From contig NZ_CP039383.2 of assembly GCF_004803715.2 (NCBI RefSeq), positions 2,046,001 through 2,110,000 of the forward strand: a DNA stretch of 64,000 nucleotides. The letters run 5' to 3'. The notes beneath the pieces were generated by a model. That model had not been told where the DNA came from. It was given only the letters and a program-made list of their open reading frames with translations, and searched no databases. The DNA comes from Luteimonas yindakuii (GTDB taxonomy: Bacteria; Pseudomonadota; Gammaproteobacteria; Xanthomonadales; Xanthomonadaceae). This document shows, piece after piece, positions 44,906-62,548 of the stretch (position 1 is its first letter; every line of letters begins with the position of its first letter). The position numbers were made by a program, and so were the translations under genes.

Positions 44906-44958
44906 GCGCAGCCACGACGGCGCTATAGTCGCGTCGTCGCTCGTCCACAGGCCCCGCC

Positions 44959-45819
44959 GTGCAGCGTCTTCCCGTCCCTGCCCTGCGCCCGTTCGTCGCC
45001 ACCCTGTGGGCGACGACGGGCGACACGCATGTCCGCAGCGCCTGCGAGCACGTGCTGCCGACCGGGCGGATGCACCTGGCCATCCGCCTCGGCGATGCGC
45101 CCCTGCAGCTGCTCGATGCCGGCACCGGCGCGGTCGCGGTGGTGGGCCATGCCGTCGTTGGCGGCGCGCGCGACCACTACTACCTCAAGCACGCGCGCAC
45201 GCCCTCGCCCACCGTCGGCGCACAACTGCATCCGGGCGCGGCCTTGGCGCTGTTCGGCATGCCGGCCGACGCGCTGGCGCACCGGCATGTCGCGCTGGAG
45301 GCAGTGCTCGGTGATGGCAGCGCCGCCCTGCGCGAACGGCTGCTGCAGGAACCGTTGCCGCAACGGCGCATCGACATCCTCGAAGCCTTTCTCGCCACGC
45401 GCCTGCCGCGTGCGCGTGGCCTGCATCCGGCGGTCGCGGAATCGCTGGCGCTGTTCGCCAGTGGCCACGGCGTGGCGGCCGCGGTCCAGCGCAGTGGCTA
45501 CAGCCATCGCCACTTCGGCGCGCTCTTCGCCAATGCCGTGGGGCTCACCCCGCAACGCTACCGGCGCGTGCTGCGCTTCCAGCACGCGCTCGATGCCCAC
45601 CGTCGCGATCCCGCCGGCCCCTGGGCCCGGCTCGCGCACGACGCCGGCTACAGCGACCAGCCGCACTTCGTGCGCGAGTTCATCGCGATCACCGGCGTGC
45701 GGCCGCAGGACTATCGCCGCATCGCGCCGGCCGCCGCCCACCATGTCCCCGCGGATGCGCCTTGGGCCGTGCGGCCAGCTGGCCAGGTCGATTCCATTCA
45801 AGACGCCCGCCCCGCGTAG
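44959..45819 (+). CDS. AraC-family transcriptional regulator
   Basis: The 286-residue protein has a DUF6597-like N-terminal half (LRPFVATLWATTGD, HVLPTGRMHLAIRL) and two C-terminal helix-turn-helix units (GVAAAVQRSGYSHRHFGALF and LAHDAGYSDQPHFVREF). LTPQRYRRVLRFQHAL is the standard link. It begins with GTG 44959; TATAGT at 44921-44926 is a plausible -10. It is followed by a VOC protein 36 bases later, which it may regulate. Confidence 0.88.
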   Translation: MQRLPVPALRPFVATLWATTGDTHVRSACEHVLPTGRMHLAIRLGDAPLQLLDAGTGAVAVVGHAVVGGARDHYYLKHARTPSPTVGAQLHPGAALALFGMPADALAHRHVALEAVLGDGSAALRERLLQEPLPQRRIDILEAFLATRLPRARGLHPAVAESLALFASGHGVAAAVQRSGYSHRHFGALFANAVGLTPQRYRRVLRFQHALDAHRRDPAGPWARLAHDAGYSDQPHFVREFIAITGVRPQDYRRIAPAAAHHVPADAPWAVRPAGQVDSIQDARPA

Positions 45820-45855
45820 CGCCAGCATCGACGCACACCCCGACGGACCCACGCC

Positions 45856-46311
45856 ATGCCCATCCATGAACTGTTCGCCTATCTCTGCGTTGCCGACACC
45901 GATGCGGCCATCGGTTTCTACGCCCGTGCATTCGGCGCCACCGAGAAATTCCGCCTGACCGAACCCGGTGGCCGCATCGGCCATGCCGAGATCGACCTCG
46001 ACGGCCACACCGTCATGCTGTGCGACGCCTTCCCCGAGTACGGCATCCGTGCGCCGCAGCCGGGCGTCGGCACCGCGGTCACCCTGCACCTGCATGTCGA
46101 CCATGCCGATGCCGCCATCGCCCGCGCGGTCGCGGCCGGCGCCACGCTGGAGCGCCCGGCCAGCGATGCCTTCTACGGCGAGCGCAGCGGCAGCGTGGTC
46201 GATCCGTTCGGCCATCGCTGGCTGATCGGCCACAGCATCGCGGAGGTCGATCCCGCGGAAATGCAGCGCCGCTACGACGCCCTGTTCGCCGAGGCCCGCG
46301 AGCCCGGCTGA
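45856..46311 (+). CDS. VOC-fold (glyoxalase/PhnB-like) protein
   Basis: The 151-residue protein has the beta-alpha-beta pattern of the vicinal oxygen chelate fold: LFAYLCVADTDAAIGFYARAF, GHAEIDLDGHTVML, and RSGSVVDPFGHRWLIG. This is the PhnB-like (VOC, glyoxalase/bleomycin-resistance type 2) form. Enzymatic role unknown. It follows the AraC gene closely. Confidence 0.85.
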   Translation: MPIHELFAYLCVADTDAAIGFYARAFGATEKFRLTEPGGRIGHAEIDLDGHTVMLCDAFPEYGIRAPQPGVGTAVTLHLHVDHADAAIARAVAAGATLERPASDAFYGERSGSVVDPFGHRWLIGHSIAEVDPAEMQRRYDALFAEAREPG

Positions 46312-46357
46312 GCGCATCCGGGGCTACGCTGCCCGCACCCCACACCGGACCGACCGC

Positions 46358-46864
46358 ATGAGCCAGCCGCGCCCCGAGCTCGACGATGCCACCCTCGCCC
46401 AGGTGCAGGAACTGTTCGCGCTGGTGCGTGCCGGCGACAGCGAACGCCTGGCGCGGCTGCTCGACATGGGGCTGGTGCCGAACCTGCGCGACGGCAAGGG
46501 CGACAGCCTGCTGATGCTGGCCGCCTATCACGGCCACGCCGATGCGGTGCGCGTGCTGCTGCAGCACGGCGCCGATGCGGAACTCGCCAACGACCGCGGC
46601 CAGACGCCGCTGGGCGCCGCCGCGTTCAAGGGCGACCTCGCGATCGCGCGTGCCCTGCTGGAGGGCGGCGCCGACGTCGATGGCCATCCCGAGGGCGGCC
46701 GCACCGCGCTGATGCTGGCCGCGATGTTCGACCGCGTGGAGATCATCGAACTGCTGCTGGCGCACGGCGCACGGGCGGACCGTGTCGGCGCCGATGGCGC
46801 CTCCGCGCTCGACCTCGCCCGCGGCATGGATGCGCAGCGCGCCGTCGCCCGCCTATCGGCGTGA
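46358..46864 (+). CDS. Ankyrin-repeat protein, AnkB-like
   Basis: The 168-residue protein holds four ankyrin repeats: GDSLLMLAAYHGHADAVRVL, GQTPLGAAAFKGDLAIARAL, GRTALMLAAMFDRVEIIELL and a final GASALDLARG. It has no signal peptide in the chosen frame. The gene stands 82 bases before catalase. In Pseudomonas aeruginosa the ankyrin protein AnkB is encoded beside katB and supports catalase activity; the same role is likely here. Confidence 0.88.
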   Translation: MSQPRPELDDATLAQVQELFALVRAGDSERLARLLDMGLVPNLRDGKGDSLLMLAAYHGHADAVRVLLQHGADAELANDRGQTPLGAAAFKGDLAIARALLEGGADVDGHPEGGRTALMLAAMFDRVEIIELLLAHGARADRVGADGASALDLARGMDAQRAVARLSA

Positions 46865-46914
46865 TCGGAAGATTCAATCGCCCAATACACCCTGCCTAAG
46901 GCCGAAAGGAGGAT

Positions 46915-46932
46915 GCTAGGGGACCACCTAGC
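46915..46932 (+). promoter_or_regulatory. Inverted repeat in the catalase leader
   Basis: GCTAGG-GGACCA-CCTAGC is a perfect 6+6 inverted repeat ending 14 bases before the katA ATG. It overlaps the region of the ribosome binding site, so it could form a leader hairpin or an operator. No clear OxyR motif is seen. Confidence 0.4.
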
Positions 46933-46946
46933 CGGGAGACGCAGTC

Positions 46947-48662
46947 ATGAAAGACAGCACGCACGGAGGCGGCGGCGGCGATCGTTCGCTGACCAACCGC
47001 CAGGGACATCCCATCTGCAACAACCAGTCGCAGCGCACCGTCGGCAGCCGCGGTCCGGCGACGCTTGAGAACTACCAGTTCCTCGAGAAGATCAGCCACT
47101 TCGACCGCGAGCGCATTCCGGAACGCGTGGTGCATGCGCGCGGCTTCGTCTGCTACGGCGAGTTCGAGGCCAGCGGCAACATCGGCGACGAGCCCGCATC
47201 GAAATACACCCGCGCCAAGATCTTCTCCCGGGCCGGCAAGAAGACTCCGCTGGCGATCCGCTTCTCCACCGTGATCGGCGGCCGCGACTCGTCCGAGACC
47301 GCACGCGACCCGCGCGGCTTCGCGGTGAAGTTCTACACCGAGGACGGCAACTGGGATCTGGTCGGCAACAACCTCGCGATCTTCTTCATCCGCGACGCGA
47401 TCAAGTTCCCCGACGTCATCCATTCGCTCAAGCCCGACCCGGTGACTTTCCGCCAGGAGCCGAACCGCATCTTCGACTTCATGAGCCAGACGCCCGAGTC
47501 GATGCACATGCTCACCCACCTCTTCAGCCCGCGCGGCATTCCCGCCAGCTACCGGCACATGGAAGGGTTCGGCGTGAACACCTACAAGATGGTCAACGCC
47601 GAAGGCAACACGGTGCTGGTGAAGTACCACTTCCACCCGCGCTGCGGCGTGGCCAGCCTGACCGCCGGGGAAGCCGCCAAGGTGCAGGGCCAGGACCTTG
47701 GCTCGGCCTCGAAGGACCTGTTCGAATCGATCGAGCGCGGCGACTACCCACAGTGGGACATGTACGTGCAGATCATGGAGGACCACGACCATCCCGAGCT
47801 CGACTGGGATCCGCTGGACGACACCAAGATCTGGCCGGAGAAGGATTTCCCGCTGCGCCACGTGGGCGTGATGACCCTCAACCGCAACGTCGAGGACCAC
47901 CACAACGAGAACGAGCAGATCGCCATGGGTACCGGCGTGCTGGTCGACGGCCTGGACTTCTCCGACGACAAGATGCTGGTCGGCCGCACGTTCTCCTACT
48001 CCGATACGCAGCGCTATCGCGTCGGTTCCAACTACCTGCAGTTGCCGGTCAACCAGGCCAAGGGCGTCGACCGCGTGCAGACCAACCTGCGCGGCGGGCA
48101 GATGTCCTACGGCGTGGACCTCGCCCCCGGCCAGAACCCGCACATCAACTTCGAGCCCTCGATCCACAACGGCCTGCACGAAGCGCCGGACATGGGCCCG
48201 AACAACCAACCCGTCATCACCGGCGCGCTCACCCGCAGCGTGCTCGAGCGCCGCAACGACTACGTGCAGCCACGCGGCCGCTTCAACACGATGATGGACT
48301 GGGAGCGCCAGGACCTGATCGACACCATGGGCACCATGCTCGCGGCCTGCGAGCGCGACGTGCAGGAACGCATGCTGTGGCACTTCTTCCTGATCCACGA
48401 CCAGTACGGCCAGGGCGTGGCCGAAAAGCTCGGCATGAGCGCGGACGACGTGCGCCACCTTGAACCGCTGCAGGGCCAGGTGCTCACCGACGAGGACCAA
48501 CAGCGCCTGAAGAACCTCGGCAACAACAACGACCCCATCGACCCCGAGGTCTGGGGCCAGTGGACCAGCTCGGTGCAGAACCACCGCGCGACCGCCGAGG
48601 AAGTACTGGACGGCACCCTCCCCGGCCCGAAGGCGGAACTGGAGGCGACGGCGGAAGCGTGA
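46947..48662 (+). CDS. katA: Monofunctional heme catalase
   Basis: The 571-residue enzyme breaks down hydrogen peroxide. Active-site His63 is in [13 protein letters not shown], Asn141 in [13 protein letters not shown], and the heme-ligand Tyr351 in [14 protein letters not shown]. The catalase core ends near residue 490; a C-terminal extension ([17 protein letters not shown] onward) makes it longer than the 480-510 residues of most small-subunit catalases, but much shorter than the 700+ residue large-subunit type. It is preceded by an AnkB-like gene and closed by a strong terminator. Confidence 0.95.
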
Positions 48663-48696
48663 TGTAGCGAGCGCTCAACCCCGAGTGCATTGAACA

Positions 48697-48728
48697 AGCG
48701 GCGCCTTCAACGGCGCCGCTTTTTGTTT
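48697..48728 (+). terminator. Rho-independent terminator of katA
   Basis: AGCGGCGCC and GGCGCCGCT form a perfect 9-bp stem around TTCAAC, followed by TTTTGTTT. It lies 34 bases after the katA stop. Confidence 0.92.
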
Positions 48729-48770
48729 GCCGACGCTTGCCTTACGACGTCGTTCCCGCCCAACACGCCG

Positions 48771-48804
48771 TCATCCCCGCGAAGGCGGGGATCCAGGGAC
48801 TTTG
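48771..48804. repeat. Interspersed inverted repeat (GTCATCCCCGCGAAGGCGGGGATCC type)
   Basis: ATCCCCGC-GAAG-GCGGGGAT is a perfect 8-base inverted repeat followed by CCAGGGACTTTG. Words of this form are scattered in many xanthomonad and Neisseria genomes. Only one full copy was found in this window. Confidence 0.65.
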
Positions 48805-48821
48805 CCTCACCTCCCGCTGGC

Positions 48822-49190
48822 CAAAAAAGCGCCCTCACCCTCACTCAAAGCGCCACCGCCCGCACTCCAAACGCCATCGATGACGGAAAAAGCGCCGTCG
48901 CCGGAACTTCAAGCCCCACCAATGGCGAAAAAAGCGCCATCCACCGCACAAGCCGACGCACCAGAAGCGTCACAAACCCCGGCGCATGACGAAGAAAGCG
49001 CCACTGCCACACTCAAAGCGCCATTGATGGCAAAAAAGCGCCATTCACCGCGCAAGTCGACGCTCCGGAAGCGTCACGAATCCCCGCGCATGACGAAAAA
49101 AGGGCCATCGTCGGCGCTCGAAGTCCCACCCATGTCTAAAAAAGCCCTTACGTCCGCACCTAAAGTGCCAGTGATGGCGAAAAAAGCGTC
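48822..49190. repeat. Degenerate tandem repeat array, 42- and 63-bp units
   Basis: The word ATGGCGAAAAAAGCGCC and its variants recurs at 48880, 48922, 48986, 49027, 49090, 49132 and 49174. Spacings are 42, 64, 41, 63, 42 and 42 bases, so a 42-bp unit alternates with a 63-bp unit that carries GAAGCGTCACGAATCCCCGCGC. Single-base indels break the frame between copies, so it is unlikely to be a conserved protein. An open frame 48727-49239 simply reads through it. The array ends directly at the first attC site. Confidence 0.75.
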
Positions 49191-49193
49191 AAC

Positions 49194-49253
49194 GTCTAAC
49201 GCCAGAATTAAGCCGAGCCGCGAACCGGCTTCGGCTTGAATGATTTGTTAGCC
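49194..49253 (-). repeat. attC site 1 (integron cassette recombination site)
   Basis: On the minus strand the site runs from R'' GGCTAAC (49253-49247) to R' GTTAGAC (49200-49194). Between them AAGCCGAAGCCGG and the complementary CGGCTCGGCTT fold into the usual attC hairpin, with CAAATCATTC and AATTCTGGC as asymmetric parts. R'' GGCTAAC is the exact complement of the box GTTAGCC at the far end of the same cassette (50447-50441). The adjoining gene stops 1 base before R''. Confidence 0.9.
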
Positions 49254-49254
49254 A

Positions 49255-50424
49255 TCACTGCTTCGTTCCCACGTTCAGTACGTTCTTTATCTCGTGGGGA
49301 TCTACAGAGCGGCCGAAGTATGTCCGAATCAACGACTTGCGAATTTCTTCTTTGTCCTCGTCCTTCATCAGCTCGATGAACGGGCCAAGCGAGGCGAGCT
49401 CAAGTTCAGTCTGGCGGGCGCGATCAGCATTCGTCCGGTGCCTTGCGGACTCACGCGCCGTATAGAACGCGGGCGCGGCAATCGCTAGCGCATAGAGTAA
49501 GCGGACGGCGATTGCCAGTGTGTTGGTGGTGGTAACTGGCTCGTGATAGAACTTGTAGAAGGTGATTCCCGCCATGATCAGACCGCTCGCAAACAAGGCG
49601 ATAGTGATCCAGCGCCACAAGTTTGCCTGCCCTGTTTCGTTGTTCGCGATGTTCTGGTAGTTGCCTGTGACTCCAATATCCCCGACGACTTGCACGATCC
49701 GCGCTGCGTCCACCTTGTGCTTCTCTAGCGATTCAATCACGGCATCAGCTTGACGTTTGAAGTTGCGCTCAGATTTCGCCAGCTCTTCTTTAGAGTCGTT
49801 CACTAATTCGGAAAAATCTGTATCGCGCTGTAGCTGGGCCTTGTTGAACGAAGTTTCGAGATTTGAAAGAGAGGCCGCCATTTCAGCCTTCAGCAAAGCT
49901 TGAGACTCCTTTAGTTCTTTCAAGCTGGCCTCTTGTGTTTGCGTCACTTCAGTCAATCGAGCGATAGTCGACGCAAGTTGTTCCTTCTGTCCATCGAGCT
50001 GTTCGATGGTTTGCCGAGACCTCTCCTGAAGATAGTCGACGACTTCACCCGCCTCAGCTTTCGATAGCGGGTTAATTTTTGGGAGGAAGGCCCACGTGTA
50101 ACTGAGTACGTTCTGGTCCAGTTGGGCAACAGCATTTGCGAGGTGACCAGCATTCGTGTTAGCAACGAACGCCGTTAGTTCATTGATCGGCGCCTGGAGA
50201 TGCGAGTTCATCTGGTTCAGAGCGGTGTCTGAAACCATAGTTGCGGGGCTCTGTCCGACAAGCGACCGCAGACTCTTAGTGATGTTCTGAATCTTGTCGC
50301 GATTGAATTGTGCGATTTCGTCAGCTGCTATCGCAGGGGCCACAAACGCCTCGTCGCGAAGGAGTTCCTGCATGCGCGCAAGCGATGCCGAGATCGCATG
50401 GTCTTTAAGAGATTTAAGTGCCAA
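49255..50424 (-). CDS. Cassette gene: coiled-coil membrane protein of unknown function
   Basis: The 389-residue protein is the gene of a complete integron cassette. It starts MALKSLKDHAISASLARMQ. Residues about 125-245 form long coiled coils (RQTIEQLDGQKEQLASTIAR, ETSFNKAQLQRDTDFSELV). Two membrane helices follow near 270-320 (WRWITIALFASGLIMAGITF and IAVRLLYALAIAAPAFY). The C-terminus is charged and cytoplasmic (LGPFIELMKDEDKEEIRKS). Base composition is clearly less GC-rich than the core genes, which fits horizontal acquisition. No family was recognised. Confidence 0.85.
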   Translation of the reverse strand: MALKSLKDHAISASLARMQELLRDEAFVAPAIAADEIAQFNRDKIQNITKSLRSLVGQSPATMVSDTALNQMNSHLQAPINELTAFVANTNAGHLANAVAQLDQNVLSYTWAFLPKINPLSKAEAGEVVDYLQERSRQTIEQLDGQKEQLASTIARLTEVTQTQEASLKELKESQALLKAEMAASLSNLETSFNKAQLQRDTDFSELVNDSKEELAKSERNFKRQADAVIESLEKHKVDAARIVQVVGDIGVTGNYQNIANNETGQANLWRWITIALFASGLIMAGITFYKFYHEPVTTTNTLAIAVRLLYALAIAAPAFYTARESARHRTNADRARQTELELASLGPFIELMKDEDKEEIRKSLIRTYFGRSVDPHEIKNVLNVGTKQ

Positions 50425-50440
50425 GGAGCTTCCCCGTGAT

Positions 50441-50500
50441 GGCTAACGCCAGAATTAAGCCGACCCGCGAAACGGGTTCGGCTTGAATGAATTGTTAGAC
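50441..50500 (-). repeat. attC site 2
   Basis: On the minus strand it has R'' GTCTAAC (50500-50494), the hairpin AAGCCGAACCCG / CGGGTCGGCTT, and R' GTTAGCC (50447-50441). The length of 60 bases and the AATTCATTC segment equal site 1. The R' box begins the cassette that holds 49255-50424. Confidence 0.9.
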
Positions 50501-50514
50501 GTCTGCCCTATGCT

Positions 50515-51324
50515 CTAGCCGAGCGCCCATTGCAACTGGTCGAAATACGATTGAATGCTCTCGTGGTTCTGGTGCTTCCAGTAGAAGCGGGCTTGCTGGT
50601 GCACTTGCATATGGCCAAACAGCCGAAACTCGGTGATCTGCGGAAAGATCCTTTTAGCCGCCTCGTATGCGCCCCGGTCTACTTCATTGAAGTATTTGTC
50701 TCCAGCCCAGGGGTTATCAAAGCTGCGCACTATCTCTCCAGCTATGGTTACAGAGGCAGTAAAGTGGGCAAGATCAATGATGTCGAGTGAGTAGTCCTCA
50801 AGCGACAGGTGAGCAGCGGCGCGATCCGCGTGCTGCTTTAGCAATCCGATCCGCTTGTGCAGCCAACCGTCTTTCTTGAGCAAAACACTATCGCTCTTAG
50901 AATATTCGGAGAAAAATTTCCGCAGAAAAACAAGAGCGCTGAGGCACTCGTCCGTGTCTTTCTCGGAGTATTTTGCCCAGTACTTTGCGTGCTCCAAGAG
51001 CACTTGGTCCGAAAGCTTTCCAAAGTTTGCGCCTGTAAGATCGGGCTTGGCCGCGTGATCGAACATCTTTCGGCACGCCAAGGTGAGTGTGTTTAGGTCG
51101 GAGAATTCAGAGTAGGTCTGAGCGATCTTGAACGGATAATCGTCCGTTGTTTTTGCTGTTTCGTGTGCCGAAGCGGACCCGAGGAAATAGTAAAAAGCGG
51201 GAAGACACATGCTGGCACGTGAAAATACGCCTCTCAGGAACTGAACTGAGCGACCTGTCCCGACAAGTCGGAACGGTTCGCCTGTTCGGAGCATCTCCGT
51301 TGCTCGAGTTGCGAGGTCGTTCAT
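50515..51324 (-). CDS. Cassette gene: protein of unknown function
   Basis: The 269-residue soluble protein begins MNDLATRATEMLRTGEPFRL. No family is recognised. Notable segments are aromatic and charged: VLLEHAKYWAKYSEKDTDE, FLRKFFSEYSKSDSVLLKK, and a C-terminal FGHMQVHQQARFYWKHQNH. It is followed by attC site 2 and preceded by an incomplete attC at 51347. Lower GC content than the core supports a cassette origin. Confidence 0.78.
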   Translation of the reverse strand: MNDLATRATEMLRTGEPFRLVGTGRSVQFLRGVFSRASMCLPAFYYFLGSASAHETAKTTDDYPFKIAQTYSEFSDLNTLTLACRKMFDHAAKPDLTGANFGKLSDQVLLEHAKYWAKYSEKDTDECLSALVFLRKFFSEYSKSDSVLLKKDGWLHKRIGLLKQHADRAAAHLSLEDYSLDIIDLAHFTASVTIAGEIVRSFDNPWAGDKYFNEVDRGAYEAAKRIFPQITEFRLFGHMQVHQQARFYWKHQNHESIQSYFDQLQWALG

Positions 51325-51346
51325 TGGGCCGCCCAGAGATGACGTG

Positions 51347-51372
51347 CTTCGGCTTGAATGAATTGTTAGGGC
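51347..51372 (-). repeat. Truncated attC (left half only)
   Basis: On the minus strand it reads CCCTAACAATTCATTCAAGCCGAAGC in pieces: R'' box, the AATTCATTC segment and AAGCCGAAGC. The matching right half and the R' box are missing. The next gene starts only 23 bases further on, so one crossover site has been lost. Confidence 0.7.
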
Positions 51373-51445
51373 GCACCCTGCGCTACCAAGTACGAGAGTG
51401 CAGCAGTCGCCGGAAATGCAACCGCGTGCCACACGGGGTACGCCG

Positions 51446-51676
51446 CTAGCCACCCACCGCGATAAACGGAATCAGGAGCCACCCGAAGGTTACCGGTACA
51501 ACGGCGATCGTAGCCGGGCCCATCGTGGGCGTCACTAGCGGCACCGAAATAACCACAATCAGCGCGATCCAAACGGTCCGACCGAAGCCCCGTGTCAGCC
51601 AAGCAACGACAAGCGTGACGCCGAGCGCGACGGCAAGGAAGGGTAAGAAGAGAGCGGCGGCTACGATGTACATCAT
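51446..51676 (-). CDS. Cassette gene: small two-helix membrane protein
   Basis: The 76-residue protein begins MMYIVAAALFLPFLAVALG. It is almost wholly hydrophobic, with a polar turn AWLTRGFGRTVWI between helices and a C-terminal GPATIAVVPVTFGWLLIPF. It starts 6 bases after the R' box of attC site 3, typical for a cassette with little untranslated leader. ATG 51673 is an alternative start. Function unknown. Confidence 0.7.
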   Translation of the reverse strand: MMYIVAAALFLPFLAVALGVTLVVAWLTRGFGRTVWIALIVVISVPLVTPTMGPATIAVVPVTFGWLLIPFIAVGG

Positions 51677-51681
51677 GTGCG

Positions 51682-51741
51682 GCCTAACGCCAGAGTTAAG
51701 CCGCGCTGCGAAGCGGCTTCGGCTTGAACGATTTGTTAAGC
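51682..51741 (-). repeat. attC site 3
   Basis: On the minus strand it has R'' GCTTAAC (51741-51735), the hairpin AAGCCGAAGCCGCTT / GCGCGGCTTAA, and R' GTTAGGC (51688-51682). The 60-base length matches sites 1 and 2. The R' box begins the cassette holding 51446-51676. Confidence 0.9.
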
Positions 51742-51779
51742 CCCGCGCAACTGGGCCTTGGATCGAATGCAGCCGCTGA

Positions 51780-52334
51780 CTAAGGAATATCCGACAGCGT
51801 GAAACCGTATGGAGCTCTCGAGGAAGCGGAGTTCCCGGCATGCGCGTCCACGTACAGGTCAGCTATGTGACCTTCGGCGTCCGATACGCCATAGTGGTCC
51901 AAGACTCTGTTGCTAGGCCCAACAACGGACCCGTACCTCTCACACGTGACGCGGCGCCCTTCATGTCGAAGCGAGAACAGATACAGCTTTGACGACATGA
52001 TGTCCTTGCAAAGGATCGGGTCATGAGGCTCGTAACCGTAGTTGATGCCGTCTATCCCCTCCCTCGCCGTCAAGGCTATGCCTACAAGGTCAGCTAAATC
52101 TTTGCTGGGTGTTGACATGGCCTCCGGTCTAGGGGGCGCCGGGGGCGCACTATTCGCCTTAATGAGGTTATCTAAGTCGATCTTTATTTGCTCGGAAAAA
52201 GGGTGCTCGCGTGCATGACACTCCACCCAGACGGCAACGAGCCCTTTAGCTACTGCGGAGCTCTTGTCAAGGTGCTGATCGTTCGAAGCGCGCGCACGAG
52301 GGCAACTTGAAGGAGGCTGGGTTCGGAATTTCAA
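51780..52334 (-). CDS. Cassette gene: hypothetical protein, possibly 5'-truncated
   Basis: The open frame covers 184 codons from TTG 52334. The best-ordered part is the second half, from MSTPSKDLADLVGIALTARE (ATG 52118) through LYLFSLRHEGRRVTCERYGS to DIPs at the end. No ATG and no ribosome site support the upper part, so either a non-ATG start or loss of the true 5' end at the degenerate attC is likely. No family is recognised. Confidence 0.6.
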   Translation of the reverse strand: MKFRTQPPSSCPRARASNDQHLDKSSAVAKGLVAVWVECHAREHPFSEQIKIDLDNLIKANSAPPAPPRPEAMSTPSKDLADLVGIALTAREGIDGINYGYEPHDPILCKDIMSSKLYLFSLRHEGRRVTCERYGSVVGPSNRVLDHYGVSDAEGHIADLYVDAHAGNSASSRAPYGFTLSDIP

Positions 52335-52337
52335 TAA

Positions 52338-52374
52338 CTTACGACTCGAAGCGGCTGTAGGCCGGTGTTAGGGC
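52338..52374 (-). repeat. Degenerate attC-like site 4
   Basis: On the minus strand it begins with CCCTAAC (52373-52367), continues with a short AGCCGCTTCGAGTCG hairpin and ends near CGTAAGTTATTG. It keeps position and polarity relative to the cassette gene but has lost most pairing. Confidence 0.45.
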
Positions 52375-52535
52375 ACCGGAGTTATCCACCACCGCTTGCA
52401 TGTGCGTGGCCGCACACGCTAGGGCCGTTCCGGTGACGCTTCGCTGTGTCTGCCCCACGAATCGCGTTCGCGGTCGCCCACCCTCGCGCCGCCGTCCCCT
52501 GTGCCATCCCTGCCATCCATCTCCCTTGCCAGCTC

Positions 52536-52590
52536 TCCCCAGAGCGTGACGTTCGTCCCGATTGTTCAATCGTGCGAATGCGGAGTCAAC
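52536..52590. repeat. 55-bp dispersed repeat, copy 1
   Basis: TCCCCAGAGCGTGACG begins the copy and GCGGAGTCAAC ends it, with CCCGATTGTTCAATCG in the middle. The same order occurs at 58309-58362. It lies just beyond the 3' end of the BCCT transporter gene. The rest of the gap 52335-52602 holds nothing else recognisable apart from TTATCCACC at 52382. Confidence 0.7.
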
Positions 52591-52602
52591 CAGCGCGGGA
52601 CG

Positions 52603-54885
52603 TTACTTCCCCTCCTCCCCCAGATCCTGCACATCCCCCGCATCCCTCGGCACCGCGGAAAGCTCATCGGCCGGCAGGATCGAGGGCGTCAGCACCGAGG
52701 CCGTGTCTCGCTCGGTGGAAACAGTCAGGAATGCCAGGTGTGCCTCGTAACGCTCCAGCACGTCGTCGATCACCTGCTGTTTGGTCAGGCCCATCAGGTC
52801 GTAGCCGCCTGAGCCGGTCTGGGTGAATACCTCCAGCCGGTAATACACGTCGGTCTCGCGCGACATGCGGCCGCTGAACATCGGCACCGGGGCCTCGACG
52901 ACGGCGACCTGGTAATGGAAAGCGCGGAAGGATTCCATCGATACCCGCAGCACCGGCTCGGCGATGCCGTGCTCGTTGGTCATGCTGCTCTGCTCCACGT
53001 CGTAGCCCTGGTTGCGGAATTCGGCGGACACGTCGTCCAGCGCGGGCCGCACGGCACGGTCGAGGAAGCGGTCGGCCTGCTCCAGGGTCGGGTACGAGCG
53101 CATCTGTTCCAGCCGCTGCTTCCACGAACGCTCCGGCACGTGGCCGCCGATGGGGGCGATCGAGCGACGGTGTAGCACCTGCCCCTCGCGTTCGGCGCGC
53201 TCCATGCGCAGCACCTTGTGGAACGAGGCCATCACCAGGTAGGCGATGACCGTGACCGGCAGCGCGAAGATCAGCGTGGCGTACTCCATCGTGGTGACGC
53301 CGCCGGCCAGCAGCATCGCCACCGTGAGCACCGCGGTCAGCACGGCCCAGAATACCCGCAGCCATTTCGGGCCGTCCTGCGAAGGGTCGGGGATCGACGC
53401 CGAGAAGTTGGACATCACCATCGCGCCGGAATTGGCACTGGTGAGATAGAACAGCAGGCCCGACAGCGTGGCCAGGCCGATCAGGAACATCGCGCCGGGA
53501 AACATCGCCAGCAGCGCATACCAGCCCTGCTCTGGGCTGGCCACCGCGAGTTCGGCGAAGCTGGTGTTGCCCTGCAATACCTGGAACAGCGCCGAGTTGC
53601 CGAACAGCGACACGATGATGAAGTCGCACAGCACCGGCGCGGTGATCGCCGCGATGACGAACTCGCGCAGCGTGCGCCCGCGCGAGATGCGCGCCAGGAA
53701 CACGCCCACGAACGGCCCCCACGCCAGCCAGAATGCCCAGAAGAACAGCGTCCAGCCGCCCATCCACTCGGCGCCGTTGGGCTCGTAGGCGAAGGTCTGC
53801 AGCGTGCGCGCCGGCAGCGTCATCATGAAGCGGCCGATGTTCTCCACCAGCGCGTTCAACAGGAACGCGGTCTGCCCGGTGACGAGGATGTACACCATCA
53901 TCGCCACCGCGCTCCACAGGTTGAGTTCGGCGATCCAGCGGATGCCGCGATCCACGCCGGAGGTGGTGGCGGCGATGGTCAGCACCACGGCGCCCACCAC
54001 CAGCGCGATCTGCAGGCCGAGGCCGGCCGGCAGGCCGAAGATCAGCGAGAAGCCGACGCTCAGGAGCACCACGCCGATGCCCATCGAGGTGGCCACGCCG
54101 AACACCGTGCCGACCAGCGCGATGATGCTGATGCCATCACCCAGCGGCCCGCGCACGCGCTTGCCCAGCAGTGGATACAGCGCGGCGCGGATCGACAGCG
54201 GCATGCCCCAGCGATAGGCGAAGTAGCCCATCGCCATGCCCAGCAGCGCATACATCGCCCAGCCCGCGACGCCGTAGTGGAACATCGTCCACACCACGGC
54301 ATCCTGCATCGCCGCGGCGGTGGCGCCGTCGCCCGAGGGCGGATACAGGTACTGCACCACCGGGCCGGTGACCGAATAGAACAGCATGTCGATGCCCACG
54401 CCCGCGGCGAACAGCATCGCCACCCAGGTGGTGAGCCCGTATTGCGGGCGCGAATGGTCCGGGCCGAGGCGCACGTTGCCCTCCTTCGACAGCGCCACCC
54501 ACAGCACGAAGCCGATCACCAGGGTGACCGTGAGCACGTAGTACCAGCCGAGGTTCAGCGCGATCCAGTCGACCGCCGCCTTCATCGCGACGCGGGCCTC
54601 GTCGGGAATCACGATCGCCCAGACCGAGAACGCCAGGATCACCAGCGCGGAGATCACCAGCACCTGCCAGTTCACCCGCGAGGCGCGATGTTCCAGCAGT
54701 TCCTGCGGCCCCTTGCTGAGGTCGCTGCGCGAGACCGGCGCATCGTCGTCGTCCACGCGCCCCCGGCGCTGGCTGCCGCCGAAGCGGGTGCGCTCGATCG
54801 GTGGGGGCCGGGCTCCGGGCGTGTTCGCCGGCGGTCCGCCCGGACGGGGCGCGGAAGGATCGTGGTCGGACGGTTCGATGGGCAT
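52603..54885 (-). CDS. betT: BCCT-family choline/betaine transporter, BetT type
   Basis: The 760-residue inner-membrane symporter has about 12 helices. The helix carrying the glycine-rich loop reads FAAGVGIDMLFYSVTGPV, and the BCCT signature is WTLFFWAFWLAWGPFVGVFL, with Trp residues of the substrate box. A proline-rich cytoplasmic N-terminus (about 80 residues) and a long C-terminal domain after residue 580 are typical of BetT forms that respond to osmotic stress. Start ATG 54885 is chosen; the upstream open frame has no likeness. It imports choline or glycine betaine. Confidence 0.92.
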   Translation of the reverse strand: MPIEPSDHDPSAPRPGGPPANTPGARPPPIERTRFGGSQRRGRVDDDDAPVSRSDLSKGPQELLEHRASRVNWQVLVISALVILAFSVWAIVIPDEARVAMKAAVDWIALNLGWYYVLTVTLVIGFVLWVALSKEGNVRLGPDHSRPQYGLTTWVAMLFAAGVGIDMLFYSVTGPVVQYLYPPSGDGATAAAMQDAVVWTMFHYGVAGWAMYALLGMAMGYFAYRWGMPLSIRAALYPLLGKRVRGPLGDGISIIALVGTVFGVATSMGIGVVLLSVGFSLIFGLPAGLGLQIALVVGAVVLTIAATTSGVDRGIRWIAELNLWSAVAMMVYILVTGQTAFLLNALVENIGRFMMTLPARTLQTFAYEPNGAEWMGGWTLFFWAFWLAWGPFVGVFLARISRGRTLREFVIAAITAPVLCDFIIVSLFGNSALFQVLQGNTSFAELAVASPEQGWYALLAMFPGAMFLIGLATLSGLLFYLTSANSGAMVMSNFSASIPDPSQDGPKWLRVFWAVLTAVLTVAMLLAGGVTTMEYATLIFALPVTVIAYLVMASFHKVLRMERAEREGQVLHRRSIAPIGGHVPERSWKQRLEQMRSYPTLEQADRFLDRAVRPALDDVSAEFRNQGYDVEQSSMTNEHGIAEPVLRVSMESFRAFHYQVAVVEAPVPMFSGRMSRETDVYYRLEVFTQTGSGGYDLMGLTKQQVIDDVLERYEAHLAFLTVSTERDTASVLTPSILPADELSAVPRDAGDVQDLGEEGK

Positions 54886-55142
54886 CGCCTGCGGCCTCCC
54901 CGGGCGTGTCGCCCATGGCGACGCTGCGACCGGGATGGCGTGGCTGTCAAGGAGCGTGTGGCGCCGGCGCCTCGGCGGCGCCATCCCTGCTCATAGCGGC
55001 GGCGGTGCTTCGGCGCCTTTCCCCGCATGTCTCGCGCAGGGGCTAGCCGTCACACGCAGCGGTTGAAGTTCGGCGCCGCGGGTTGGCGAGACGTCAGCGC
55101 GGTTCGTGCAAGGCCGCGACGGGCTGGGCCCGTTTGCCTCCA
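54886..55142. other. 257-bp gap without a recognised gene
   Basis: This stretch separates the BCCT transporter start from the VOC gene stop. No convincing ORF, hairpin or operator was seen; the transporter promoter must lie here. Confidence 0.4.
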
Positions 55143-55535
55143 TCACGCATCCATGGGCGAACACAGTTCGACCAGCAGCCCGTCCGGACACCGCACGTAG
55201 GACACCACCTGCCCCCATGGCCTGGCCTTGGGCGCGGCCATCTCCGCAGCGCCTGCCGCCACCGCCCGCGCATGGGCCGCATGCACGTCGGATGTCACCA
55301 GACCGATCTCGATGCCGAGCGGCCTGCCGGACGTGTCGGCAGCCACATGGCCGCCGCTGAAGTTCGTCTCTGCCAGCCCATGGGATGCGAACGCCAAGGC
55401 TGTACCACCGGTCTCCAACTCTCCGTACATCTCCGACTCGTGGAGAAAGCGGCGCTGCAAACCGAACGCACGCTCGAAGAATTCGAGTGACGCCGGGACA
55501 TCAGGAACGTAGGCGATGGTGTAGCCAAACTTCAC
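55143..55535 (-). CDS. VOC-family (glyoxalase/bleomycin-resistance type) protein
   Basis: The 130-residue protein has the fold's two halves: VKFGYTIAYVPDVPASLEFF with RAFGLQRRFLHESEMYGEL, and GIEIGLVTSDVHAAHARAV with VSYVRCPDGLLVELCSP. GTG 55535 is chosen because GGGGAA lies 7 bases before it and family members begin with this strand. Function unknown; lactoylglutathione-lyase-like annotation is common for such genes. Confidence 0.82.
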   Translation of the reverse strand: MKFGYTIAYVPDVPASLEFFERAFGLQRRFLHESEMYGELETGGTALAFASHGLAETNFSGGHVAADTSGRPLGIEIGLVTSDVHAAHARAVAAGAAEMAAPKARPWGQVVSYVRCPDGLLVELCSPMDA

Positions 55536-55572
55536 GGGTATTCCCCATTGTTGAAACTGTCCAGGCGAGCTT

Positions 55573-56104
55573 TCAGGCCCGGACCGCGCGAAGAATGCGA
55601 GCCATGACCGGACGTACCAGGAAATGGGCGGCCGCGGAGATAGCGGCGCCAACGGACGCCGCAATGGCCGGCAACACCGAGCCGAGCACGAACGTCATCC
55701 CCAGCACGAAGCCGAAGACGTACTCCGCCCGGTACGTTGGCAGGAACAGCCCGGCTGCCAATGCGGTGAAGAAGATGCCGCTGGCAAGCGACCCGTAACC
55801 CGCGGCGAAGGAGAAGGACAGCGCCAGGCCCACCAGCAAGGCGCCCAGGAAGGCGGAAACCGACCGGACCGCCGCCCGGCCGTCCACAGCCGCGCGGCGC
55901 ATGGCCGTCCACGAAGCGAGCCACCCCAGCAATGGAAGGGATCAGCAGCCCCCACCAGTTGGACACCGCCGGCAAATCGCGCCGGGCCAGCAGATGATGG
56001 CTCGCGACGCCGCCGTGGGTGTACTCCCAGCCCAGATGGGCGGCGCTCGCCACCAGCGCAACGGCGAGGCCATAGGGCAGCGCGCGGCGAAACACTGGAC
56101 TCAT
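55573..56104 (-). pseudogene. Frameshifted multi-helix membrane protein gene
   Basis: The first frame starts MSPVFRRALPYGLAVALVAS at 56104 and runs through WEYTHGGVASHHLLARRDLP to SNWWGLLIP. The continuation is in another frame: LLGWLASWTAMRRA followed by helices (SAFLGALLVGLALSFSFAAG, EYVFGFVLGMTFVLGSVL) to 55573. Joining them gives one protein of about 177 residues with 5-6 helices. The break lies near 55930-55945, where the sequence is CCTTCCATTGCTGGGG on the minus strand. A real mutation or a one-base sequencing error are both possible. The intact family is not named. Confidence 0.7.
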
Positions 56105-56278
56105 GTCGTTTCCGTGGTTTACGGCAGTAGCGGACGCCAGGCGCGAACGCGTGGCTGGAAGAAGCGGTCTGATCCTGCGCGTGCTGCTACGCCTGCGCCG
56201 GCTTCTTGAAGACGTAGTACAGGCCTGCGCGAACACCGCGGCCGTGCTGCCGCCTTGATACGGGAATCTCTCATGCAA

Positions 56279-56325
56279 GCCTGACGCTTGGATCAAGCCG
56301 ACCCGGAATCGGGCTCGGCTTCAAC
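56279..56325 (-). repeat. Degenerate attC-like hairpin a
   Basis: On the minus strand the core is AAGCCGAGCCCG-ATTC-CGGGTCGGCTT, as in a true attC stem, ending at GTCAGGC (56285-56279), one base off a GTTAGGC R' box. The gene at 56326-56742 ends directly at its other border. R'' is not recognisable. Confidence 0.55.
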
Positions 56326-56742
56326 TCATCGATCCGCAGCCGGCGGTGCCGCCACCTTGCGCGACTCGAAGATGCGAACGATGACGTAGGCCACCAGCGC
56401 GATGCAGAAGAACACCAGCAGCATCCAGGCGATCCCCTGCAGGGTCTCGATGATGGTGCGGTAGACCTCGAGCACCCATCGCTCGGACGTCAGCTCGATG
56501 ATGCGCGGCTCTTCCTGCCACTGGTTCGGCGTGATGTAGCGCTCGAGCTCGTGGATCCGCACGCCCGAAGAAACACCCACCACCAGGATGGCGAACTTGA
56601 GATAGCGCACCCAGGCTGCGCTGATGTCGTCGGCAATGATGCGACTGAGGATGCGGCTGATGGGCCGGTTGAACGCCAGCGAGACAGCGATCGATACAGC
56701 GACCGCCAGCACAAGCGTTACGAGCAGCAGAGTGAGGAACAT
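56326..56742 (-). CDS. Membrane protein of unknown function
   Basis: The 138-residue protein has an N-terminal helix (LTLLLVTLVLAVAVSIAVSL), a second near residue 48 (RYLKFAILVVGVSSGVRI), an amphipathic middle with RYITPNQWQEEPRIIELT, and a last helix (GIAWMLLVFFCIALVAYVIV). No family recognised. It lies between two attC-like hairpins and ends next to one, like a cassette gene. Confidence 0.72.
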   Translation of the reverse strand: MFLTLLLVTLVLAVAVSIAVSLAFNRPISRILSRIIADDISAAWVRYLKFAILVVGVSSGVRIHELERYITPNQWQEEPRIIELTSERWVLEVYRTIIETLQGIAWMLLVFFCIALVAYVIVRIFESRKVAAPPAADR

Positions 56743-56754
56743 GGGTTCTCCCGT

Positions 56755-56806
56755 GGCCTATGGCGAGACGCGAGTCCGCCGCGCGGCGGGTCCGGCTTGA
56801 TGAAGT
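56755..56806 (-). repeat. Degenerate attC-like hairpin b
   Basis: On the minus strand TTCATCAAGCCGGACCCGCC, GCGC loop and GGCGGACTCGCG form a hairpin with the attC-like CATCAAGCCG lead. It begins directly after the TAG stop of the gene at 56807. The outer R boxes are not canonical. Confidence 0.45.
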
Positions 56807-57055
56807 CTATTTCTTCCTGCCTGTTCCCGGCAGCCAGCCAAGGACTGTACCCGCGATGGATAAGGTGAGCGCGCCCAGAAGGATGACCTTGCCGTAGCGC
56901 CGCCCCACTTCATACCCGGCGGCATATCCGGCGTCGTAGCTCTGCACTGCGTCGCCATGCGCGGACGTATCGGGAGCGACAACGACCCCGAATATGATCA
57001 TCGCTGCGACAAGGAATACGACGAACCATAAAAACCCGAAGGCGACCCTTGTCAT
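56807..57055 (-). CDS. Small two-helix membrane protein
   Basis: The 82-residue protein begins MTRVAFGFLWFVVFLVAAMI, followed by a polar loop DTSAHGDAVQSYDAGYAAGY and a second helix ILLGALTLSIAGTVLGWLPG ending in GRKK. The YDAGYAAGYEVG repeat is Gly/Tyr-rich and may be a helix-packing motif. Unknown function; same cassette-like placement as its neighbours. Confidence 0.7.
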   Translation of the reverse strand: MTRVAFGFLWFVVFLVAAMIIFGVVVAPDTSAHGDAVQSYDAGYAAGYEVGRRYGKVILLGALTLSIAGTVLGWLPGTGRKK

Positions 57056-57170
57056 TACCCCTCCCAGCGTCTCAATCCCCAGGCCAGCTTCGCGCGGTAC
57101 GGTCTGGACTCGACTGAACCATGGCGAGCGCTACACGTGCCATAGGCTTTCGACCGCTACCTGGCACTCC

Positions 57171-57217
57171 GGTTACTCCTGGCCGCGAAGCAGCTTCGGC
57201 TCAACGTATCGTTGGCC
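57171..57217 (-). repeat. Degenerate attC-like hairpin c
   Basis: On the minus strand GGCCAACGATACGTTGAGCCG, AAGCTGCTTCGCGG and GGAGTAACC follow each other. The GTTGAGCCGAAGC...GCTTCGCGGC stem is the same kind as in the canonical sites. It ends 4 bases from the stop of the DUF6404 gene. Confidence 0.5.
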
Positions 57218-57220
57218 ACA

Positions 57221-57580
57221 TCACGGTGCGCCTGTGTACTCCCTCCATGGCGGAAGTCTGTGCTTTCGGGCCAGATGCCGGAAATAGGCAGCCATCACTA
57301 GACCGAACAGTGCCCCCGCAGCAACAGCAGTGGCCGCCATGAGGCCGATTGGCATGCCCTGCCGTGCCCAGAGAATCATCCACATGAGCAGGCCCCACGA
57401 CAGCGCAAAGAACACCCCCATTGCCAGTGCGCCAGGCATGAAAGGAGTGAACAGTGGAGGCGGCAACTCAACGCCGAGACGCCAAAGCAGACGCCAGGCC
57501 GGCGGAGCTGCTGTGCTCCTTGGGACGCCGAGCATCGCCATGTGCCGATACATCTGTTCCAGTTTCTCTTGATGAGTCAT
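57221..57580 (-). CDS. DUF6404 membrane protein
   Basis: The 119-residue protein has the family N-terminus MTHQEKLEQMYRHMAMLGVP followed by STAAPPAWRLLWRLGVELPP and FTPFMPGALAMGVFFALSWG. Two helices are visible (about 55-80 and 85-105). DUF6404 genes are often found in integron cassettes and near other small membrane proteins; function unknown. ATG 57580 is the family start; the frame upstream runs through an attC-like hairpin. Confidence 0.82.
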   Translation of the reverse strand: MTHQEKLEQMYRHMAMLGVPRSTAAPPAWRLLWRLGVELPPPLFTPFMPGALAMGVFFALSWGLLMWMILWARQGMPIGLMAATAVAAGALFGLVMAAYFRHLARKHRLPPWREYTGAP

Positions 57581-57587
57581 CAGCGTC

Positions 57588-57643
57588 TGAGCACCTTGAT
57601 TTACGCCGGGTCGCAGAGCGACTTCGGCCTGAACTGTCATGCC
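57588..57643 (-). repeat. Degenerate attC-like hairpin d
   Basis: On the minus strand TTCAGGCCGAAGTCGCTC-TGCGACCCGGCGTAAATCA contains GTCGC/GCGAC and GCCG/CGGC stems. It lies between the RDD gene stop and the DUF6404 start. R boxes are degenerate. Confidence 0.45.
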
Positions 57644-57663
57644 ACGGCCGCGCGCTCGAATCC

Positions 57664-58131
57664 TTACCGCTCGAAACGCACTGCCTCCGTCCGATCCCCA
57701 GCCGGGCGGATCACCACGGTGCCGGCCAGCTTGTCGTGCCAGCCCTGTTTACGCGGGTCGAAGGCGACCCAGATGATGCCGAGCCCGAGCGGCAGCGTTG
57801 CCACGAAGTAGCCGACGTAGCGGATGACCGCCTGTACCCCGGAGAGCGTATTGCCGGTGCTCGCGTCCACCACGCGGGCGGAGACCGCCATCTTCCCGGG
57901 CGTGGCCTGCTTGTGCAGCCAGAACAGGATCACCGCGGCAAAGGGAAACACCCAGCTGATCACGAAGTCGGCCGGGCCGCGGATGATCGGGGCGTCCGGA
58001 TCGGCGAAGTAGCCGGTGCCGTAGATCCCCAGCAGCAGCGGGAGAGTGATCAGCAGGACCAGGATGTAGTCGATGATCGACGCGCCGACCCGGGCCCAGA
58101 ACCCTACGTATTCCATTTCATCGTGTTGCAT
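57664..58131 (-). CDS. RDD-family membrane protein
   Basis: The 155-residue protein has the RDD hallmark: GFWARVGASIIDYILVLLIT with Arg and Asp in the first helix, then GKMAVSARVVDASTGN and AVIRYVGYFVATLPLGLG. The C-terminal DPRKQGWHDKLAGTVV is standard. The family is found in ion-handling and unknown membrane roles. It ends close to an attC-like hairpin. Confidence 0.88.
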   Translation of the reverse strand: MQHDEMEYVGFWARVGASIIDYILVLLITLPLLLGIYGTGYFADPDAPIIRGPADFVISWVFPFAAVILFWLHKQATPGKMAVSARVVDASTGNTLSGVQAVIRYVGYFVATLPLGLGIIWVAFDPRKQGWHDKLAGTVVIRPAGDRTEAVRFER

Positions 58132-58308
58132 GTCCGTTCCCCTGTAGTTGCTGCGTGGTGTTTCCGGTCGTGCACGTCAACGCGCACGCGAGTCCGCGGG
58201 CCTGCGCATGCGCGACCCGGGTCTGATACGTGCTTCGAACGTGCCGGTGGTGCCGGGCTTCGATCGTCCTGACCAAGTTGTCCCCTGTCCCTGTGATCGT
58301 CGCGGCTT

Positions 58309-58362
58309 TCCCCAAAGCGTGACGACCGCCCGATTGTTCAACCGGACGTGGGCGGAGTCAAC
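58309..58362. repeat. 54-bp dispersed repeat, copy 2
   Basis: TCCCCAAAGCGTGACG, then CCCGATTGTTCAACCG, then GCGGAGTCAAC, in the same order and spacing as at 52536-52590. Both copies are preceded by GTCCCCTGT within 45 bases. Confidence 0.7.
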
Positions 58363-58415
58363 GACGGGGCGCGGGCCGGCTTGATCGGGATGGCGCGAAC
58401 ACCATCCCCACCCAA

Positions 58416-58436
58416 CCCTCCCCTTGAAGGGGAGGG
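58416..58436. repeat. Short GC-rich inverted repeat
   Basis: CCCTCCCCT-TGA-AGGGGAGGG forms a 9-bp stem with 3-base loop. It may be a dispersed repeat or a rho-independent-like end for lolD, though no T-run follows. Confidence 0.5.
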
Positions 58437-58539
58437 CTTGAAAGCCGGACGCTGCAGGCGGACTTGCGCAGGGCCAGGCTGCGGATCCTGCCCGAGCGGA
58501 CGGAAGAGAAGCCTGGCTTTTAGCCAGTCCGAAGGTGCT

Positions 58540-59326
<787 letters not shown>

Positions 59327-59334
<8 letters not shown>

Positions 59335-60568
59335 AACGCAGCGCCTCCGCCGGGGCGGTGCGCGATGCACGCCATGCCGGGTAGATCGTGGCAAGGAAGG
59401 CCATCGCCAGCGCCACCAGCGCAATGATGGTGACGTCGTCGGCGCGCAGCTCGGTGGGCAGGCCGGTGATGTAGTAGACGTCGGGCGGGATCAGTACCAC
59501 GTCGAACGCGGATTCGATCGCGCGCAGGATGTGCTCGAGGTTGAGCGTGAGCAGCACGCCGCCGACCACGCCGAGCACGGTGCCGATCACGCCGATCAGC
59601 GTGCCCTGCACGATGAACACCCGCAGGATGCCACCGGGCGGCATGCCGAGCGTGCGCATGATCGCGATGTCGGCCTGCTTGTCGGTGACCAGCATCACCT
59701 GCGACGACACCAGGTTGAACGCGCCCATCGCGATGATCAGCGACAGCAGGATCGCGATCATGGTCTTCTCCAGCCGCAGCGCGCGGAACATGTTGGCGTT
59801 CTCGCGGCTCCAGTCGCTTACCCGGTACGGCCCCTGCAGGGCGATGGCGAGGTCGCGGGCTACATCCCACGCCTGGTTCATGTCGTGCAGGCGCAGGCGC
59901 ACGCCGGTGACGCCCTCGCCGAGCCGCTGCACGCGCTGCAGGTCGGCCATGTTGACCAGCGCGAGGTTGCGGTCGAACTGCTGGTGGCCAGCCTCGAACA
60001 GGCCACTCACGGTGTAGCGCTTGAGCTGCGGCACCGCGCCCATCGGCGTGGTCTGGAAATCGGTGGTGACCACCACGCGGTCGCCCACGCGTACGCCCAG
60101 CCACAGCGCGAGCTCGCGGCCAAGGATGATGTTGAAGCTGCCGGGTTCGAGCGATGCAAACTCACCCTCGACCATCTTGTCGGCGATCACCGACACGTGC
60201 CTTTCCTGCTCCGGCAGCACGCCCTGCAGCAGCGCCGGCTGGCGGTTGGGGCCTGCGATCAGTGCCTCGCTCTGCACGTACGGGGCAGCACCGGCCACGC
60301 GTGCATCGCGTTCGGCGATGTCGACCGCGTAGCGCCAGTTCTCCATCGTCCCGCTGTCGGCGCTGACGGTGGCGTGCGCCGACATCTGCAGCAGGCGGTC
60401 GCGGATCTCGCGCTGGAAGCCGGTCATCACCGCGAGCGTGGTGATCAGCGCGGCGACGCCGATGGCGATGCCGAGGATGGAGGCGAGCGAGATAAAGGAA
60501 ATGAAGCCGTTGCGTCGTTTGGCGCGCAGGTAGCGCAGGCCAATGGAGGCGGACAGGGGTCTGAACAT
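59327..60568 (-). CDS. lolC: LolC/LolE-type permease of the lipoprotein-release system
   Basis: The 413-residue protein has the N-terminal [21 protein letters not shown] and [21 protein letters not shown] first helix, a large periplasmic domain (about 50-265), and three C-terminal helices ([55 protein letters not shown]). Only one permease gene is present, so a LolC/E-hybrid (LolF) homodimer or a second gene elsewhere is possible. It overlaps lolD by 8 bases, so the two are coupled. Confidence 0.93.
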
Positions 60569-60613
60569 CGGGGCTCGCGAGGGACGCCGGCGGTCTGCAC
60601 CGGCACAAGAGCC

Positions 60614-61084: not shown

Positions 61085-61289
61085 CCGGGACCTCCTCGTA
61101 GCCCATGAACCAGCGCCAGAGCCTATCGTCCTCGCAGTCCATCAGCTGTAGGAATACCCCGCGTTCCTCGTCGGACGCGGTTGGCCATGCACGGTCGAGC
61201 CAGGCGTTGAACAGCACGTCGAGCTCGCGCATGCCACGGCGGCAGCGCCAGCGCAGGCGCTTGAGTTCGGGGTCTTCGTGCGCGCTCAT
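61029..61289 (-). CDS. sdhE: SdhE, succinate dehydrogenase FAD assembly factor
   Basis: The 86-residue protein assists covalent FAD attachment to SdhA. The family signature is [20 protein letters not shown] (RGMRE core), then [26 protein letters not shown]. It overlaps the MAPEG gene stop by 4 bases (ATGA) and lies downstream of sdhB. This fits assembly with the sdh genes of this locus. Confidence 0.93.
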
Positions 61290-61711: not shown

Positions 61712-61720
61712 CGTTGCCCC

Positions 61721-61750: not shown

Positions 61751-61757
61751 GGAGTGA

Positions 61758-62546: not shown

Positions 62547-62548
62547 GG

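Follow-up and report, generated by a model that had tools for sequence, protein, structure and literature searches.

How does a run of integron cassettes come to stand in a chromosome with no integrase gene at its side? The question is raised by a locus in Luteimonas yindakuii (genome G000), within a stretch of 64 kb, called here the window, that covers positions 2046001–2110000 of the single 3.04-Mb contig. An initial annotation, made from the sequence alone, described window positions 49194–52374 as a cluster of attC sites lacking an integron integrase (CALIN), with three complete attC sites of 60 bases, a truncated site and a decayed site separating four leftward genes. The locus is an ordinary CALIN, partly eroded, and it belongs to a group of arrays without an integrase, several of which are still headed by an attI site, in a genus where one integrase may serve several arrays. 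The explanation favoured here, to which a probability of about two-thirds is given on the basis of sequence comparison, is that the window array is the remnant of a satellite integron array that was once headed by attI, had no intI gene beside it and was served in trans by a remote IntI, and that its head was later deleted.

The three complete attC sites and the truncated one are present as described, all on the minus strand (Table 1). The scores of the complete sites in the covariance model R1 (84.7–86.0 bits) are high partly by construction, because these three sites, together with one attC from the array beside the intI gene of this genome, form the training set of the model. A scan of the genome, in which 150 of 2882 first-look candidates were scored, gave at least 27 other cassette-strand loci at E ≤ 10 (at least 22 at E ≤ 0.01). 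Thus the attC type is real, and sites of this type form three clusters in the genome. All three complete window sites retain intact R boxes. The R″ box of attC 1 (GGCTAAC) is the exact complement of the R′ box (GTTAGCC) at the end of attC 2, which opens cassette 1, as had been pointed out; in cassette 3 the corresponding boxes agree at 6/7 bases, and the opening R′ is gone from cassettes 2 and 4. Folding as single-stranded DNA, a check that had been proposed for these sites, separates attC 1 and attC 2, which fold better than all 200 shuffles, from attC 3, whose fold is equalled by 58 and 49 of 200 shuffles. The retained half of the truncated site has 96% identity over 25 bp to one attC of an array at 2.67 Mb (described below). 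The drop in GC content that had been noted is also seen: the four cassette bodies have 0.53, 0.53, 0.62 and 0.57, whereas 1-kb segments of the window outside about 47.7–58.5 kb average 0.696 (sd 0.022, minimum 0.640). The decayed attC proposed at 52338 is rejected; R1 lists no match there at E ≤ 10, and the stretch lies within a flank that is shared with a sister genome (G026). Two other weak attC-like sites, at 56279–56337 and 57591–57638, had been overlooked.

No intI match was found in the 64-kb window, in agreement with the initial annotation. The array has at least two attC sites, its nearest intI is 0.93 Mb away and no intI stands beside it as in a complete integron, hence the name CALIN holds by definition, but the name alone misses what the rest of the genome contains. 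The recommended genome-wide search shows an intact intI at 1169105–1170043 (459 bits against a cut-off of 265), the one TIGR02249 match over cut-off in the genome, and the array on its left (1.161–1.169 Mb) is a sedentary chromosomal integron, from which the window array differs in having neither intI nor attI. Named carriers among the best 120 relatives of this IntI include metagenome-assembled genomes of Rhodanobacteraceae and Xanthomonadaceae, as well as Luteimonas.

A second large attC cluster without an integrase lies at 2.6624–2.6705 Mb, next to a ribonucleotide reductase (RNR) gene. This RNR array (G000:C1:2662401–2671132; positions 401–9132 of locus L060) has 17 attC sites and a complete attI at its head, and it surpasses the intI-linked array in size and preservation. 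The count of 17 includes a site at L060 8114–8225 that the model saw on the opposite strand only and one at 4761–4872 that was full-length there only. The attI (L060 9111–9245) has 72% identity over 141 bp to the sequence that separates intI at 1.169 Mb from its first cassette; beyond the RNR-array attI are a TSCPD-domain gene and then the RNR gene. Both AAC and GTT are kept in 15/17 attC sites of the RNR array and in 6/10 of those examined in the intI array. The four exceptions are the distal sites of the intI array (L019 11431–14234, i.e. G000:C1:1161431–1164234), which have altered R boxes, three of them with CCTGAC in place of CCTAAC. A sigma-70 consensus for a cassette promoter was unmatched in three attI regions.

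The presence of attI without intI is not confined to this locus. The exact attI core CTAACRMCTATTMGA has 13 matches in 8 of 52 genomes of the genus, and the reversed pattern has 0 in the same 52. Each of the 13 cores has an attC-model match on its cassette side within 1.5 kb (the best match is at least 53 bits in 10 and 22–25 bits in 3). IntI is encoded directly downstream of five, and in the other eight none is found in about 1.5 kb: G000 at 556 kb and 2.671 Mb, G002, G012, G017 at 2.819 Mb, G023 C4, and G026 C1 and C11. All six genomes with these intI-less cores hold an intI over the family cut-off elsewhere. The intI-linked attI of G000 itself has one base changed and stands outside the 13. 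When 2 mismatches were allowed, 37 genomes yielded 16 matches, in 10 of them, against 5 in the reversed control; the extra matches of this looser search were left out of the 13-site counts.

At the RNR locus, sequences are colinear across the intI-less junction between G000 and G017 (83.5% over 1535 columns) and between G017 and G026 (84.8% over 1355); the match between G000 and G026 in the same search starts just beyond the junction. G000 and G017 also have the other flank of the array in common. This colinearity suggests that the lack of intI at the RNR locus is older than the split of the three species. All three species have an intI-less attI there, with largely different cassettes: in a comparison of 88 cassette bodies, all that the RNR arrays have in common is a family of ~325 bp (72%–84%) and one pair between G017 and G026 (73%). 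Related cassettes also occur in both kinds of array, i.e. in the RNR and intI arrays of G000 (90.1% over the full 343 bp), and in the RNR array of G000 and the intI array of G017 (97.3% over the full 896 bp).

The slot occupied by the window array, between a catalase gene and an ABC-transporter gene, was compared in the two sister genomes in which a close catalase orthologue was found (94%; G026 and G017 only, of seven relatives searched with the catalase protein). In G017 the slot is empty. Positions 4300–8158 of locus L141 correspond to window 44915–48736 (84%) and 8374–13832 to window 58542–64000 (93%), so that ~215 bp separate the two genes and the 9.8 kb of the window is absent. G026 shares the catalase side (88%) and the right flank, window 52316–52931; between them are other genes (L056 10168–10884, 9710–10063 and 9041–9400) and weak attC remnants. 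Had related species carried these genes in an unchanging order, the initial annotation would have been contradicted; what is found is other cassettes in one and an empty slot in the other. At the right end of the G026 array is the attI core CTAACACCTATTCGA (C1:609011–609025), an exact match with no IntI within about 1.5 kb, and it stands ahead of cassettes other than those of the window. Thus an attI heads the array at the window's slot in a relative.

Where the head of the window array would have been, two homology limits nearly coincide. At the protein level, cassette 4 aligns with its homologues as far as about 52290; homology to the right flank of G026 begins at 52316, 75 bp outside the attI core in that genome. 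A single deletion, removing the attI head and the start of cassette 4, accounts for both limits, and head and cassette start were probably lost in this one event.

Several side observations concern this slot. Between the catalase gene and attC 1, window 48817–49196 holds degenerate repeats of 21–42 bp (AAAAAAGCGCCATC...), which are weakly present in G026. A direct repeat of ~75 bp (77%), at window 52532–52603 and 58305–58378, brackets the gene of a BCCT transporter (window 52603–54984) and the right-hand block. BCCT genes or fragments are found no more than several kb from attC matches in G013, G036, G033 and G026; the G029 stretch gave no such match. In G026, G029 and G033 the gene has an internal deletion or survives as a fragment.

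These observations can be put together as follows. Integron platforms would once have been present at several chromosomal positions, and most of them would have lost intI, with one copy remaining (two in G023). The remaining IntI would act in trans on the intI-less arrays, cassettes entering at attI and leaving at attC. We infer this service in trans because cassettes differ at the RNR locus, related cassettes are found in both kinds of array, and attC boxes have been retained. A deletion in the window array would then have taken the attI together with the beginning of the first cassette. With its head lost in this way, the window cassettes could at most be excised or shuffled by way of the three attC sites, and the array could not be fed at attI.

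Additional evidence was sought in the sequence around the cores. In one attI lineage (G000, G017, G026 and relatives), TAAC/TAAT boxes occur near offsets 30, 43, 117 and 130 from the core, forming a comb. Two to four of the four boxes are kept within one base in 5/8 exact intI-less sites (both sites of G000, G017, G026 C11 and G023 C4). The outer boxes played no part in finding the sites, and a comb slid over downstream sequence gave a mean of 0–0.03 boxes. The comb recurs in two sites from the looser search, in G029 and G033; in a first set of six exact sites plus these two, all intI-less, 7/8 keep two to four boxes. As a general mark of intI-less attI the comb was dropped when the count was extended to all 13 sites (two or more boxes in 5/8 intI-less and 3/5 intI-linked), and the counts therefore mark one attI lineage only. 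In eight pairs of an intI-less with an intI-linked site (two of them from G029 and G033), boxes including the core are 60%–93% identical and spacers 46%–69%.

A number of points weigh against the proposed history. No sequence in the window comes within 2 mismatches of the attI core, and its array thus has no attI at its head. The attI at the G026 slot keeps 0/4 outer boxes and faces a weak attC (23 bits); among the other intI-less sites the boxes are also poor in G002 (one) and G012 (none). The intI-linked exact sites are no more uniform, 3/5 keeping two to four boxes and those of G029 and G023 C10 none. Pairs of intI-linked sites show the same contrast between boxes (84%–95%) and spacers (67%–75%), and descent therefore accounts for part of the box retention. 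The pattern used for the core comes from this lineage, and its frequencies hold for this set of genomes. With the G017 slot empty, it is the flanks shared by two genomes that support a common ancestry of the window and G026 arrays. The cassette-body comparison, at its criterion, found none of the window cassettes in the other arrays. An apparent cassette exchange in G017 (99.9% over 1141 bp, in both of its arrays) was discarded as a transposase gene with HTH_38 and rve domains.

A rival reading is that a full integron at this slot lost its intI and has decayed since, with the remote IntI uninvolved. CALINs have been proposed to be degraded integrons (PMC9024848), and both the attI and the attC sites at the G026 slot are decayed. 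Local loss of intI did occur in the genus, because two intI-less attI sites, G000 at 556 kb and G023 C4, are still similar to intI-linked copies as far as the region where intI starts. Traces of a lost gene were looked for with tblastn beside the window, G026 and 2.67-Mb arrays, and only weak matches were obtained (best E = 0.049, in the left flank at 2.67 Mb). The 27 IntI queries were that of G000 and those from 26 of 29 loci (L061–L089) with an open reading frame containing HSFATHL, which we take to be a mark of IntI; loci found later were left out. Simple decay is nevertheless unlikely: the three window attC sites have intact R boxes, and at the RNR locus the cassettes differ although the absence of intI seems older, so that decay alone would require all these differences to be losses from a longer ancestral array.

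Cassettes placed by IntI into a chromosomal site other than attI (attG) are joined to a site of the GWT type. The right junction of the window array has apparently been altered by deletion, and the original junction is therefore gone. The presence of an intact IntI in the genome and the lack of a visible attI in the window speak for such an insertion, a kind of event that has been described (PMC12444791, PMC12901181), but the attI core at the same slot in G026 makes it distinctly improbable. A rearrangement that brought a piece of the intI-linked or the 2.67-Mb array to the slot is very improbable, for although the attC sites are of the same type, none of the window cassettes has a match in either array at the criterion applied, and G026 shares the slot but has other cassettes and an attI core there.

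A beheaded satellite array served in trans thus remains the preferred reading of the window, and it can be set beside known systems. IntegronFinder 2.0 counted 2961 CALINs against 2760 complete integrons, and the paper repeats the suggestion that CALINs arise by degradation of integrons (PMC9024848); three origins put forward for them are off-target insertion, intI loss and rearrangement (PMC8618304). A CALIN as defined resembles the window array in having several attC sites and cassettes with intI not nearby. The definition as given there makes no reference to attI, sites of which outside class 1 are described as poorly known and are not detected by IntegronFinder 2.0 (PMC9024848). Here, in contrast, two intI-less sites of G000 were found to have an attI, as was the slot of the window array in a sister species. 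A published CALIN with its own attI is known from Shewanella prophage M16-3 (PMC9892861); that is one prophage case, whereas the present data hold eight intI-less attI sites in six genomes, with one locus kept across three species and its cassettes largely different. CALINs of Xanthomonas, like those described here, occupy conserved chromosomal loci away from intI, and the paper on them speaks of a functional IntI mobilising them in trans, but its passages which deal with attI mention none for them (PMC12444791). No report of conserved chromosomal CALINs headed by attI was found in the openly licensed literature searched.

At the level of the genus, we lean slightly towards a multi-site integron, in which one IntI would serve several attI-headed arrays and intI-less attI sites would be kept by selection as points of cassette entry. 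The 2.67-Mb array would then be the larger and better-preserved store and the window array a beheaded member, and many CALINs of other bacteria may carry attI sites overlooked by current tools. If fixed-position CALINs do have an attI and receive their cassettes in trans, they would be working parts of a distributed integron and not debris. This idea can be tested in published genomes once attI is modelled by lineage, and by an attC × attI assay.

Table 1. Features of the window array and its slot (window coordinates; scores from covariance model R1).
Feature	Positions	Strand	Basis or remark
Whole slot, catalase gene to ABC-transporter gene	48737–58541		Absent from G017
attC 1, complete, 60 bp, GGCTAAC...GTTAGAC	49194–49253	-	86.0 bits; fold z -3.7
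Cassette 1 gene, 389 aa, coiled coil and hydrophobic segments (by eye)	49255–50424	-	No convincing family match
attC 2, complete, 60 bp, GTCTAAC...GTTAGCC; R′ opens cassette 1	50441–50500	-	85.5 bits; fold z -5.1
Cassette 2 gene, 269 aa, widespread	50515–51324	-	Homology search
Truncated attC, R″–L″ half retained, L′–R′ half and start of cassette 2 gone	about 51346–51373	-	Sequence
Cassette 3 open reading frame, 76 aa, small hydrophobic protein (by eye)	51446–51676	-	Open reading frame
attC 3, complete, 60 bp, GCTTAAC...GTTAGGC	51682–51741	-	84.7 bits; fold no better than shuffles
Cassette 4 gene, 184 aa, 5′ end lost	51780–52334	-	Homologue alignment
Putative deletion junction	52290–52316		Protein homology limit and G026 flank limit
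Right flank of array, common to G026	52316–52620		78.5% over window 52316–52931
Weak decayed attC-like site upstream of BCCT gene	56279–56337	-	30.9 bits, E = 1.7e-5 in 84 kb
Second weak decayed attC-like site	57591–57638	-	28.8 bits, E = 5.9e-5 in 84 kb

The four leftward genes of the initial annotation stand as open reading frames without a family match, but the loss of the 5′ end of the fourth had escaped notice. All eight homologues found for cassette 4 are longer (226–322 aa), and the first ~14 residues of the window sequence are unaligned; its 5′ end is therefore considered lost. A scan of five window open reading frames against Pfam and NCBIfam gave nothing over the curated cut-offs. 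A PADLOC scan gave nothing convincing, with only cassette 1 weakly matched (best E = 0.004); the weak matches of cassette 1 to SLATT and ZorA are not claimed as an identity. Cassette 1 has one relative in the genome scan (68%, Xanthomonas euroxanthea), on a contig with attC matches about 2 kb from it. Cassette 2 has 176 homologues at E ≤ 1e-3; relatives among the best 120 of these are found in Xanthomonas campestris pv. raphani (84%), Pseudoxanthomonas mexicana (61%) and Stenotrophomonas maltophilia (58%).

Two further observations come from genome G036. A very large attC array adjoins intI at G036:C1:23133–68296, and the genome has at least 115 model matches at E ≤ 0.1. In a cassette-bearing region (L053 17521–17997) a TIR-domain protein is encoded (TIR_2, E = 7.5e-29), which is possibly a phage-defence cassette. 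At the other end of the L. yindakuii window, positions 390–491 contain a glycine riboswitch (RF00504, 68 bits).

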